NCBI GenBank assembly: GCA_010119145.1
Contig: JAACSU010000007.1
Location: 205,869 to 269,868 of the forward strand
Length of the DNA stretch: 64,000 bases
Origin: Candidatus Gracilibacteria bacterium
Lineage (GTDB): Bacteria > Patescibacteriota > Gracilibacteria > BD1-5 > UBA6164
Direction: 5' to 3'
The translations under genes and the position numbers were made by a program. The stretch's first letter is position 1. Each line of letters starts with the position of its first letter. Below the pieces are notes generated by a model. The model saw nothing but the letters and a program-made list of their open reading frames with translations, had not been told where the DNA came from and made no database searches. Below are positions 18,401-25,228 of the stretch, one piece after another.

Positions 18401-19303
18401 TTACTCAGCGAGTAAGTCATTTACTATTGTCATAATTTCATCTTCAACCTCAACTGAATCTGTTCTGTCGTCTATAATTTCTTGTAGAGCGATAAGAGCA
18501 GCAAGTAATGCAGTATTATCTTGGTTATTTTCAATCATTACTTCTATTCGAGCAGATATTTGTGGTAGTCTTTCTGCAGGAATTTTGTCTAAAGTTTTCT
18601 CCAATCTTTTAAGAAATGCTTTTCTATATTTTTCAACAAGACTCTTTTTTACTTCTTTATATTCTTCTCTGAGTTCTTTGCTTTCTTCTCTTAATTTTGC
18701 ATTCGCTTCTAAAACTCGTTCTCTTTTTTCAATGATATCAATTCCATTTGAGCTAGAACCTATTATTTCTTTTATAGCCTCATAAGAAGCCATAGCTACT
18801 TCTTTCATTTTAGCTCGAATAAGAACTTTATCAGCGTCAGTCGTAGCGAGTTCAAGTTGGTTCTCAAGTGCTTCTAACTGAACTTTTGTTTCAGCTTTCA
18901 AAGTTTGAAGTTCCAATTTTTGTTCACTCGTAAGTTCACTTCATAAATCTCTCAGTTTATTTTTATATTCGTCTTTGAAGTCTTCTCTGTTTTGTTTTGC
19001 TTCTTCTCTATTTGCTTTAACTGAGTCTTTCATTTCATTTTTTTGAGTTTTCATCTCATTTTTTCTCATATCTTTTCTATCTTCGTCTTCATCTTCCATT
19101 TCATCCTCATCTTCCATTTCATCTTCATCTTCCATTTCATCTTCATCTTCCATTTCATCTTCATCTTCCATTTCGTCTTCATCAGAATCTTGAGTCTCAA
19201 TGCTCGTGTCGTCGCTATCGTCTTCATGGTCAGCAAATGTAGTCTGTGCTAAAGGCATTGATAGTAATGCTAGTAACATAAGGAGTGATAAATTCTTTTT
19301 CAT
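18401..19303 (-). CDS. Exported acidic-repeat, coiled-coil protein
   Basis: 300 residues. A signal peptide is clear: MKKNLSLLMLLALLSMPLAQ then TTFADHED, with cleavage probably after AxA-like TFA. Residues about 38-75 are five tandem copies of a six-residue DEMEDE unit, coded by an 18-bp repeat (about 19085-19175). The remainder is a Lys/Glu-rich coiled coil (KEMxxxxNxxKQNREDF-like; SKELREEYKEVKKSLVEKYR). It is one frame; a UGA Gly at 18941-18943 would split it under the standard code. An acidic exported protein could bind cations or the cell surface; no function is established. Confidence 0.8.
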
Positions 19304-20668: not shown

Positions 20669-21832
20669 ATGTATTTTTTTGAACAAATAAAAACTCAGTT
20701 TATTCTTAATTTAAGAGTAGATTTTGAAGTGCAGGGGGCTCAAAACCCAGAACAAATCGCTAAAACACCTTCTGAAAAATCAGACAAAATAACTACTCCA
20801 GAAAATACCCTTGAACATGCTAAAAAGACATCCAGTAAATTAGATGCTCAAATTAATCAAGAAAAAGAAAGATGACTCATAAAAGATTGAGAATTAGCAT
20901 ACTGAAATATTTCTTCTAAAAATATCGAAACAAATTGATTTGATATGAGAACTGATAATCTCTCTGAATCTATGCCAGCTCCTATAGGCCAAACTGAGTG
21001 AGATGTTTTTAGTTTATGAGAAAGGTATAGTTCACCACAGGAACAAGTAATGTTAGGGAAACTAGCTGAGGGTACGATTGGATTTGATGATCCAGAAGTA
21101 TCTGCACTTGCAAAAGACCTATGAATGGAAGAAGTGTTGCGTACTGCGGGAATTGATTGACTTGGTAAAACTGAAGTTCCTGAGTGAATAGAACAATCAA
21201 CTCCAGAAATGTTGCAATGATCTAAAACTGAAGTTGAGTCAGAAATAGCTAAAATTGATTCTCAAATACAGTCACTTCCGGAAGGCTCTCAAGAAAGACA
21301 AGCCTTAGAAAAACAATCTACTTTTTTATGAAACTTTGCTCAAGCTATCATAGATATGATTGAATGAAAACAACCAGGCTCTCAAGCGTGATGATTTGAG
21401 TGAATTGATGTGGTCTGAGATAAGGATGTACTCGCAAGAGGAATGACTTACACTGGAATACATGAAAATTCTGGAGAAGCGGATAAATTCTTAATGTGAA
21501 TGGCAAAATCAGCTCGACAAACTCCATGGTGTGCCTGATATGTGAGTTATGTACTAAAAGAAGCTTGATATAACATTACTCCAACATTGTCTTCTCAAGC
21601 ATTTATATGAAAAACAGGGAAATGACATGTTGCTTTTTATGCTTGAAATAATCAAATGCTTGGATGAAATCAATCCGATTCAGTATCATTAGCTCCTATT
21701 AGAAAACCTATTGCAGGATGGACCATGCCAGAAGATCTTGAAAAATGAAAAGCATCAAATAAAGGATGAACTCCTCCAATTTGAGCGATAATAGTATTTA
21801 ATAGATGAAATACAGATAGAAATCTTGCATAA
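20669..21832 (+). CDS. Putative peptidoglycan amidase/peptidase (CHAP-like, TIGR02594-type)
   Basis: 387 residues. The first 20 or so (MYFFEQIKTQFILNLRVDFE) resemble the start of the next gene and are not a standard signal peptide. A Ser/Thr/Glu-rich linker runs to about residue 240. The C-terminal domain has TPWCAGYVSYVLKEAG (catalytic Cys), GHVAFYAGNNQM (catalytic His) and LGGNQSDSVSLAPI, the hallmark of TIGR02594/CHAP-like cell-wall enzymes. The strand PIGAIIVFNRGN, which in that family normally precedes the GHV motif, lies at the very C-terminus here. It probably cleaves peptide bonds in peptidoglycan. First gene of a four-gene cluster. Confidence 0.72.
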
Positions 21833-21850
21833 TTTGCGTCACTATCCAAA

Positions 21851-21882
21851 AAATGATATCCTTAAGAGGATATTATTTTTTT
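21851..21882 (+). terminator. Terminator or attenuator between the two hydrolase genes
   Basis: GATATCC and GGATATT pair around TTAAGA, followed by a T-run, 20 bp after the stop of the first hydrolase and 11 bp before the second ATG. It may lower expression of the second gene. Confidence 0.65.
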
Positions 21883-21892
21883 ATACATATGT

Positions 21893-23914
21893 ATGTATTT
21901 TCTCAATCAACAAATAAAACAATTTTTGAACTTAGTAGTAAGTTATAATGCAAATCCTACCGATGGGCCAGATGGTGGATGAATTGAATCATGAGAACTT
22001 AATGTACCAAAAGATAAAGTAGATTCTACAGAAAATCTAGCCTTTAAAGAATTAAATGAAGAACTTGAGGGCATTGATAATGATTCAAGTCTTATTAGTA
22101 AGTATGCAAATATACTTGGTACATTTCTTCAAAAAGTGAAATCTTGAGAATATCCAGGTCTAAGCGAAGAGGATGATGATTTTAATAGATTATTAGAGCT
22201 CTATACTTCTCGATTCAAGCAATTAAACACTCTCAGAGATAGAGGTCATCAAATAGAGCATATAATAAGCTTAAATATATCAAAGCTCAATGAATCAGTA
22301 GATACGGTCATAGAGTGATGAAGTATTACTACAGAACTTGATGCAGCATTTGAGCAAGAAGCTGAAAATAACAAAATTGAAATTGATCAACTTAGTTCAC
22401 TTGAAAATGAATATAGAGCTCGAATAGAAGCTATTTGAATAAAATTATCTCCATTTTTTTGAAAAGAGAACAATACTAATTCTATGGAAAAAGTTGTAAA
22501 TATCTTTAAACAAATTAATACTTCAGTTCTAAAAGACATGACTGATTCAGATAAATTAGATTTTTTTAAACTTGAAGCAATATCTGGAATTCAAGAGATA
22601 AATAGATTAGCTGACATAGCCTTGAGAGATGAGACGATGGTATGAGATAATAAAGAGAAACTTGGAGAAGAAAGACTTGATTCAAGTCATGAAAATTATA
22701 ATGAAATATTAGAAAACGAAGAAATAAAACAAGCATTAACGAATTCTGAGTGAGTAACTCCTACATTTGAAGAACTAGATTCTGACCATATTTTAATACT
22801 ACAAAAAAAATGAGTTAATTTAGCAAAATTATTTTTAGTACATGAAGATGGTTCAAATATTTCTGAAGATTTAGAACAAGGAAAATCATATATCGTAAAT
22901 TTTTGAAGAAATACTGAATTAGCTTGAAAATTAAATCTTGCAATTATAGCAAGAAATTCTCAAGAAGTATTACTAGACTGAAAAAACATGCAGTTTGAAG
23001 GGAGCCAGTTTAAATCAGATTGAAAATTATATCCGTTAAGGGATGGGTCAAAAATTGAAATTATTAAAAAATTTACAGATGAGGGGTCGCCTGAACAAAC
23101 TGAGAGATTTAAGCAAATAAATTGACTCTTGGAAAGTAGCTGAGTTGCTACTACGCAGCAAAGATCTATCCGAGAAGCAATGATTTCTCCTAATCCTCAA
23201 GAAGCTTTTCAATGAATGACTCTTCCTGGAGGTATTGCAGGGATGCTCATGAAAATGTTTATAGAATTTTTTACAGATAAAAATTTTGAACTCGTTGAAT
23301 GAGAGAATATTTGGAAAGAAGTAAACGGCGATGTATTAAGTAATGAGGATATTCTCAATGATACGATGTGAAAATATTATGATAACGGTCAAAGAATCGA
23401 TGTGAGTTCAAGCTTTGAAAATCTACCTAAATGAGTTTGATCATTAATTAATACTATTTATCAAGCAGAATCAAATGGGAATCCAAATATTATCTATTCT
23501 TGATGTCCTATTCAACCTCCAATGCCTATTACAGAGATGTCAATTAGGGAAGTAAGAATTTTTCAAGACAGAATGGTAGCTGCAGGAAGCAAATCATCTG
23601 CAGTTGGTGCCTGTCAGATAATCAGAGATACTATGGATTGAGCAATAAGTGCTGGAGTATTGAACCCAAACGATAAATTTGATATGGCAGCTCAAAATAA
23701 ATTTACAATATGGAAAATGAATGAAAGAGGTTTAGATGACTTTATGTCATGAAAAATAACAGATGCAAGCTTCATGAAAAAACTCTCTCAAGAGTGGGCG
23801 TCACTTCCAAAAGATATGTCAGGTGCAAGCTACTATGCTTGAGATTGATTAAATCATGCACTCGTAAGTCCACAACAAATTATGCAACATTTGAAACAAA
23901 TTTGAAATTGATAA
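21893..23914 (+). CDS. Large protein with C-terminal phage-lysozyme-like domain
   Basis: 673 residues. The N-terminus MYFLNQQIKQFLNLVVSYNA shares its pattern with the preceding gene. A long acidic, mostly helical region follows (residues about 40-500), including a segment with isolated beta strands near 310-380. From about 505, INTIYQAESNGNPN, ITEMSIREVRIFQDR, SSAVGACQIIRDTM and QEWASLPKDMSG-SYYAGDGLNHA match the order of motifs in phage-type muramidases (E-S-x-G-x-Y-N; GRYQF-like; W-A-x-x-P). Glu in AESNG is the likely acid. It probably cuts glycan strands. ATG 21893 is used, as the overlapping ATG 21889 frame stops soon. Confidence 0.7.
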
Positions 23915-24008: not shown

Positions 24009-24629
24009 ATGGATAAATTTTGACACACAGAGTGGGGAATTGGTGAGAATGCAGATATGTTTGAAAACTTAAATAAAGAAGAAATTTTTTTAGATTCTCA
24101 AAAAGATACATTTTTATTGCGCTTGAATGGAGTGGAAAAAATGGGACTTGTAATCATGTTAACTGTATGAGGTGTCACAACAATAATGGCTTCAAAAGTG
24201 AGATGACAAGAAATGGAGCAATATTATCTCTACGATGATTTGAACCAACGATATGAAAAACCAGTATTTGATGGAAACATGTGGGACATGTGATTAGATG
24301 AGTTAAAATCATACTTATATAATGAATGATTTGATAGTCAGTGAAATCCAGCTTGAAATATCCTTGATTTAATGACAGAGTTTGACACTTTAAAGAGTCT
24401 AGATTTTAAAAAAACTTTAGAGACCTGGCTTATTTCATTGTATGAAAATACAGGCTATAAATTCAAATGAAATGAATTGATTTTGTTAGTACAAGTATAT
24501 TGAGATTTACAAAATCATGATTATAAAGCAGCTGAAAATACTATTTCAATTTTTAAAAGTATTTTTTCTTGGGTGCAAAATTTAGAATATGCTCTGGATA
24601 ATCTTAAACTTATCCCATTAGAAGCCTAA
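24009..24629 (+). CDS. Hypothetical protein with one membrane segment
   Basis: 206 residues. It opens MDKFGHTEWGIGENADMFEN; a hydrophobic stretch near 48-62 (MGLVIMLTVGGVTTIMA) could be a membrane helix. The rest is acidic and aromatic (ETWLISLYENTGYKFKG). It follows the lysozyme-like gene with its own short gap after a terminator and precedes the 24674 gene by 44 bp. No family recognised. It could be an accessory of the hydrolase cluster, but only proximity supports this. Confidence 0.6.
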
Positions 24630-24673: not shown

Positions 24674-25228
24674 ATGGTACAAGTACCTCTAACTACTACA
24701 GAATTTGAAGAAATTATAGATGATGTAAAACAATGAAGGTTTAGAGATTTTTTAAGAAAAATAAAACCTTTAAGAACTGCAGTTTCAACTTCTATGTTTA
24801 TACTTACAGCTACTCCAGCAGCTTGAGATTCGGTTCAAATATGAAATGACCCTTGAATAGAGAGTATTGAAGCATGAAAATTAATTGCTGAACTTCTTCG
24901 TTTAGAAATTGCATGAATTCCAACTTCTGAATTGTCAGAATATACTGATGAAGAAACGAGAAAATATTATCTAGAGGCATTTTCACATCCAGAAATATTA
25001 CATCAAACAGGACTCATTATACGAAAATTTTCAGAAGAATTAGAGCTATATTTGGGCTGGGAAGATATTCCTTCTATAGCAGATTTAGTGATTGCAAAAT
25101 ATTCTTGAAATTCTAATCTTTGGAAAGATACATTTTCAAATACAGTTTCACTTTATTCAGCATATTCAAAAGACCTTACAGATTTATTGACGAGTCTATG
25201 ATTTAACCCAGAATGATCAAAAATCTAG
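24674..25228 (+). CDS. Hypothetical protein with internal hydrophobic segment
   Basis: 184 residues, opening MVQVPLTTTEFEEIIDDVKQ. After a basic stretch (RFRDFLRKIKPLR) comes TAVSTSMFILTATPAAGDS, which looks like a membrane helix with a possible AxA cleavage site, so it may be an unusually long signal peptide. The remainder is helical and acidic. Its TAG stop overlaps the stop of convergent tsaC by 3 bp. Last gene of the hydrolase cluster; no function recognised. Confidence 0.58.

Follow-up and report, generated by a model that had tools for sequence, protein, structure and literature searches.

Two adjacent genes on the forward strand of the window, by which we mean the whole stretch of 64,000 nucleotides analysed here, encode putative cell-wall hydrolases, referred to as lysin 1 and lysin 2. 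The window genome (1.28 Mb) needs translation table 25, in which TGA encodes glycine, for open genes; read with table 11, both lysin ORFs are interrupted at TGA. In code 25, lysin 1 (20669..21832, + strand; 387 aa, MYFFEQIKTQFILNLRVDF) is laid out as a leader, a linker with a helical region, and a Cys/His endopeptidase-like domain of the TIGR02594/NlpC-P60-like kind with PWC and GKGH motifs. Lysin 2 (21893..23914, + strand; 673 aa, MYFLNQQIKQFLNLVVSYN), in the same code, consists of a leader, a helical region, a conserved middle domain and a lysozyme-like C-terminus. Both proteins are acidic, as the original prediction for this stretch had stated, with a pI of 4.8 for lysin 1 and 4.6 for lysin 2.

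Directly 3' of the lysin 1 stop codon lies a promoter-like element for lysin 2, TTTGC-N15-ATGATATCCT (21833..21862, + strand), and just 5' of the lysin 2 ATG an inverted repeat or hairpin with a T run, AAATGATATCCTTAAGAGGATATTATTT (21851..21878, + strand; MFE -10.7 kcal/mol). An adjoining gene on the opposite strand (18401-19303, - strand), like its relatives, encodes a secreted protein; its signal peptide is clear, and it has an acidic, highly repetitive EDEMEDEDEM stretch that varies from species to species.

The leader of the two lysins

The leader comprises residues 1-16 of each protein, located at 20669..20716 (+ strand; MYFFEQIKTQFILNLR) in lysin 1 and at 21893..21940 (+ strand; MYFLNQQIKQFLNLVV) in lysin 2, and follows the consensus M-Y-F-L-x-Q-I-K-x-Q-F-L-x-x-L. 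Leader profiles match the two at E values of 1e-9 to 3e-8 and 2e-9 to 1e-8, respectively, and leader 1 scores above all 253 background N-termini when its own genome is excluded from training. The shared N-terminus is thus real, but the 12 of 20 aligned positions originally reported need a gapped alignment, with 12 identities in the first 22 residues and three short gaps, whereas 20 residues aligned without gaps contain just 6 identities. Among the 1,275 N-terminal pairs formed by the 51 window ORFs of at least 150 aa, the lysin pair nevertheless ranks top with a score of 45 (runner-up, 30). Past about residue 17 the likeness falls to background, which agrees with the predicted divergence after the leader and excludes the alternative raised with it, a gene duplication including the following region, since the region behind the leader does not align. 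Because whole-length BLASTP of lysin 1 against lysin 2 is not significant (E = 0.10), the case for the leader depends on relatives of the pair.

Distribution of the leader

Combining the leader profile with body homology, we found 27 more leader proteins in the same family, which brings the set to 29, from 16 of 48 family genomes and 7 of 20 genera and with the leader at the ORF start in every one; a match in G032 that is not at an ORF start was left out of the 16-genome count. The expectation that a profile search would bring further members therefore held for the family but not for the window genome, in which two-row, A3 and A4 profile searches gave no third leader protein: the two extra matches of the A3 search both had E about 0.57, and the refined A4 search returned the lysin pair alone at E <= 0.02. 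Sampling of 242 genomes from the class and 380 from the phylum gave no leader match at E <= 0.001 outside the family, so that the leader is not a general feature of BD1-5/SR1 genomes. Scans of IMG/VR with both lysins retrieved no relative; their patterns may use standard Gly codons, and TGA-coded relatives could escape them. Weaker profile matches in G006, G032, G002:C19 and others were rejected, as they lie inside other ORFs or have no Met start. In the literature on Gracilibacteria lysozymes and signal peptides and on Patescibacteria N-terminal motifs, we found no prior account of the leader.

In genus g1, whose members were found via body homology and synteny, the locus occupies the same chromosomal place across species, between an RmuC-like gene and rsmG/tsaC-like genes. 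Most g1 species have two to four tandem ORFs with a leader start there, and G003 has one clear case; examples from the genus are MFFIEQIKQQFLLTL, MYFLEQYKTLFLSQL, MYFLEQIRKQFLAGV, MYFITQIKSQFLRNL and MYILKQISIQFSFHL. Body homology also reached other genera, with the leader MHLLKQLKRNFLQLM present twice in G029 and the leaders MYFLEQLKNSFVRCL and MYFFTQIKKAFINGF in G016, and the profile searches contributed G011, G018, G023, G027 (two), G031, G067, G069 and a second G005 locus. This second G005 leader protein (L089, G005:C13:277000-289000) is encoded at a distance from the main locus by a gene that is partly N in the record; a gene for a 1,253-aa protein with the same promoter type neighbours it, and one for a small peptidoglycan-binding-like protein lies nearby. 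At six loci of genera g2, g5 and g10 (L038, L040, L078, L080, L230 and L231), the lysin cluster adjoins an RNase R-like gene and not RmuC.

Conservation and separability

With training sets that excluded the whole genome of the leader under test, 26 of 27 leaders scored above each of the 253 background N-termini; in cross-genus training (on the genus only, or on members outside the genus only), 20 of 27 still did so. This leave-out test is partly circular for those non-genus members that the profile itself found; body homology or synteny had led to G016, G029 and, except for the second G005 locus, the genus members. In non-orthologous pairs, identity amounts to 39% over residues 2-9 and 23% over residues 10-16, and drops farther along to 12% and then to about 7.5%. 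Of the 29 leaders, 27 have Gln6 and 24 have Phe11. The conserved residues are encoded by differing synonymous codons, indicating that the constraint acts on the protein.

The presence or absence of the leader on otherwise related enzymes adds to this. Homologs of the G029 enzymes in the sister genus g4 begin M-VENQ..., where G029 begins M-HLLKQLKRNFLQLMFLGL-VETQ..., so that exactly 18 leader residues are absent in g4, and the bodies of one such pair are 64% identical. Of the tandem paralogs, both are without the leader in g4 and both carry it in g5. On this comparison of sequences, the leader is a separable, separately conserved N-terminal cassette of about 16-18 residues, and the proposal of a real shared element, found mostly on cell-wall-lytic proteins, has held up. 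The leaderless g4 homologs (L036 and L037) are encoded beside secreted proteins with ordinary signal peptides, and towards one end of the cluster there is an ABC transporter-like gene.

Lytic domains behind the leader

The C-terminal lytic domain of lysin 1 (21446..21709, + strand; residues about 260-347) matches TIGR02594 at residues 260-307 (E 4e-10) and the phrog_1259 tail lysozyme profile (E 8e-13), and an NLPC_P60 match at residues 315-347 falls under the Pfam cut-off. Lysin 2 ends in a phage-endolysin-like lysozyme domain (23417..23899, + strand; residues 509-669) with an AES...SAVGACQI motif, which matches phrog_90 (E 7e-14), is 36% identical to Rhizobium phage lysozymes and has one phage relative annotated as SAR endolysin transglycosylase. 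The lytic domains of the pair are thus unrelated, in line with the original prediction. From these motifs, PWC...GKGH in lysin 1 and AES...SAVGACQI in lysin 2 are the putative catalytic residues. A sequence search of the PDB gave lysin 1 only weak NlpC/P60-type matches and lysin 2 no match. To the middle domain of lysin 2 (22760..23077, + strand; residues about 290-395), which is common to the orthologs of G004, G005 and G007 (alignment A6), no known fold could be assigned.

About 20 of the 29 leader proteins, both window proteins included, have a wall-lytic or wall-binding domain of one of several unrelated kinds, 14 of them by direct profile match (the G023 LysM and G027 CHAP matches being weak) and the others by homology to scanned members. 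These kinds are TIGR02594/CHAP, VgrG3-like lysozyme (PF21277), SLT, N-acetylmuramidase (PF11860), phage endolysin, PG_binding_1 with DUF5715, and LysM. About nine proteins have no recognised lytic domain, three of which are truncated or masked in the assemblies. Lysin 2 has orthologs with the same leader, helical region and middle domain but with a C-terminus made up of a VgrG3-like lysozyme and a further domain; the lysozyme domain of lysin 2 itself is 59-63% identical to that of G001 and G002 proteins with a different body. Judging from these domain arrangements, C-terminal lytic domains are exchanged behind the N-terminal part, the layout of polymorphic toxins and effectors, in which a constant N-terminus is followed by exchanged toxic domains.

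One or two small genes follow the lysins on the 3' side at most g1 loci, in numbers unequal to those of the lysins, and immunity or partner proteins are a possible role for their products. Such small genes 3' of lysins lie at 24009-24629 and 24674-25228 in the window and at L031:4569-5162, L033:11376-12014 and L035:5018-5341. Some of these small proteins have a hydrophobic, signal-peptide-like stretch behind a long N-terminal region, most clearly in L031.

Promoter-like element and hairpin

The pattern TTTGC-N(13-17)-[AT]TGNTANNNT is located about 30 nt 5' of the ATG in 20 of 29 leader genes, compared to 5 of 190 other ORFs at the same loci. Hairpins in the last 42 nt are also stronger upstream of leader genes (mean MFE -7.1 vs -2.6); because the sequences are interrelated, p-values overstate their independence. 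A role of the element specific to leader genes was rejected: the pattern occurs 19 times in the window genome and 2 times in the reversed control, and it represents a general promoter type that is strongly enriched here. Most tandem leader genes have their own copy, close to the stop codon of the preceding gene, and at least one g4 hydrolase gene retains the same promoter type. With one promoter per gene, the lysin set is probably co-expressed.

In the window (21833-21878) and at L031-L041, L077, L078 and L080, TTTGC-N13-17-ATGNTANNNT overlaps the inverted repeat and T run. The hairpin 5' of the ATG is retained in other genera with different letters, and could act as 5' stem-loop, as operator or as terminator of the preceding gene.

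Physical properties of the leader

The maximum 10-residue KD hydropathy of the leaders ranges from 0.6 to 2.4, whereas four signal peptides encoded at the same loci reach 2.5-3.0. The leaders thus do not show the uninterrupted hydrophobic core of the signal peptides of this organism, although those of g5 and G027 come near to it. An A/V/S-x-A cleavage motif near residues 15-35 is missing from 23 of 29. These results support the statement that the leader is not a standard signal peptide. Other signal classes fitted no better: there is no Cys column as in a lipobox, Cys occurring within residues 12-15 in few leaders only; the column composition shows no twin-arginine motif, G/FTxxE pilin junction or GG cleavage site; and polar and charged residues recur within leader residues 5-16, unlike in a SAR-type transmembrane segment.

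The hydrophobic moment of the leaders peaks at 80-100 degrees, with 0.355 at 90 degrees vs 0.231 for shuffled sequences. The combined z of 2.9 at 100 degrees points to a modest amphipathicity, and single leaders mostly fall short of significance. AF2 models, built from three-row alignments and poor overall (mean pLDDT 37.6 and 42.2), place a helix at leader residues 2-19 and 2-23 with a pLDDT of only about 30. In the lysin 2 model the middle domain reaches about 56-86 by block and the remainder is mostly below 50; structure comparison with these low-pLDDT models gave no usable match.

Genes for secretion machinery

A search for the tail-sheath gene (PF04984) was negative in all 47 family genomes searched, among them all but one of the leader-bearing genomes, while the control search gave matches in 3 of 14 known genomes. 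The original prediction had offered a packaging signal as one role of the leader; for a contractile injection system these searches speak against it, and packaging of the lysins into a contractile syringe is unlikely. VirB4-like genes were considered as partner of the leader and rejected, since their matches are weak, occur in just 12 of 47 genomes and do not follow its distribution. We found no dedicated exporter beside the leader genes, saw no T4SS gene beside the lysins, and recognised no holin or lysis gene beside the window pair.

Discussion

On balance, we consider the leader to be an envelope-targeting cassette of clade-specific, polymorphic cell-wall lysins, most likely serving export. 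It would form a short, weakly amphipathic helix, hydrophobic at residues 2-4, 7, 11, 12 and 15 and with the near-invariant Gln6 and with Phe11, and would bring the lysins to the cell envelope through an interaction with either the membrane or a translocation component. Behind the leader, a body made up of an acidic linker, a helical region and sometimes a middle domain would bear the exchangeable peptidoglycan-cutting domains, whose target may be the cell's own wall or that of a neighbour. Export is likely because this cargo acts on peptidoglycan, and from the conservation of Gln and Phe we favour a protein receptor for the leader. A point against targeting is that the g4 versions of the enzymes have neither leader nor signal peptide; either the leader is not essential, or the g4 enzymes travel differently. 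A more far-reaching version, which we put forward only tentatively and think rather doubtful, is a new class of export signal, a Gln/Phe-marked amphipathic helix read by a dedicated translocation component in one Gracilibacteria family, which would send out a swappable wall-cutting arsenal, possibly into or onto other bacteria. Work on related lineages (PMC8080830, PMC11452946) makes predation a plausible context for the lysins.

The main competing explanation, especially for g5-type leaders, is a divergent Sec signal peptide or signal anchor, in which a short basic n-region and a short h-region from residue 11 would engage SecA/SecY, with or without cleavage. Monoderm lysins are usually exported via Sec, the leader resembles substrates of signal peptidase I in being N-terminal and short with some positive charge and a hydrophobic stretch, and in g5 and G027 basic residues precede FLQLMFLGL-like stretches with a 10-residue KD up to 2.4. 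It is, however, less hydrophobic as a rule; in g1 the h-region is broken by polar residues, with KD often below 1.2, and a regular cleavage site is wanting in the expected zone of those 23 leaders. Gln6 and Phe11 are moreover conserved, which Sec signals do not require, and the same loci also encode ordinary signal peptides; we regard the Sec explanation as unlikely. A peripheral membrane anchor, which would keep the lysins unexported on the membrane until lysis or prey contact as an endolysin-like store, would suit the helical periodicity, the N-terminal aromatic cluster, the phage endolysin type of the cargo and the lack of a recognised secretion signal. The weak amphipathicity combined with such specific Gln conservation fits it poorly, as does a pair with no holin or lysis gene recognised nearby, and we judge it improbable.

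Docking to a partner protein or an extracellular machine (a pilus, a surface complex or a T4SS-like channel), in the manner of the MIX, FIX and RIX markers of T6SS effectors, appears to us improbable to a similar degree. Such effectors likewise combine an unchanging N-terminus with toxic C-termini that are swapped (RIX: PMC10435454), but the family genomes searched lack the phage-tail sheath gene, and the VirB4-like matches are weak and independent of the leader. That the leader is a functionless remnant of tandem gene duplication or conversion is hardly credible. The tandem arrangement and the two G029 leaders, which are near-identical together with their upstream regions, would be expected from it, yet the leader survives genus divergence where adjacent residues do not, its codons vary synonymously, and it occurs at varied chromosomal sites (near RmuC in g1, near RNase R in g2, g5 and g10, and at the second G005 site).

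The envelope-targeting cassette that we favour can be set beside several known systems. Like RIX, MIX and FIX, it is a short conserved N-terminal element before diverse C-terminal toxic or lytic domains, and the N-terminus of RIX is both necessary and sufficient for secretion; the leader differs in having 16-18 residues instead of about 55, no arginine-rich motif, no detected contractile apparatus, mainly peptidoglycan hydrolases as cargo and a distribution confined to one Gracilibacteria family (PMC10435454). VirB1-like two-domain hydrolases of monoderm T4SS also bring lysozyme or transglycosylase together with CHAP/NlpC, whereas here the activities are split over separate proteins with no neighbouring T4SS gene seen (PMC12102498). 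For Vampirococcus lugosii, a predatory relative in the wider group, peptidoglycan hydrolases are predicted to be secreted, and wall hydrolases are thus common to both; a shared atypical leader is not mentioned in the available part of that report (PMC8080830). SAR endolysins likewise combine a phage-type lysozyme with an atypical N-terminal targeting segment, but the leader, which is also found on endopeptidase-type domains, lacks the length and the apolar character of a SAR transmembrane helix.

Little is known so far of how host-dependent CPR bacteria deliver lytic enzymes to other cells, and the majority of CPR bacteria are not culturable. A defined signal of 16-18 residues provides a handle for listing such enzymes from sequence, for testing their export and for seeking the receptor, with the leaderless homologs of the sister genus as a natural control.
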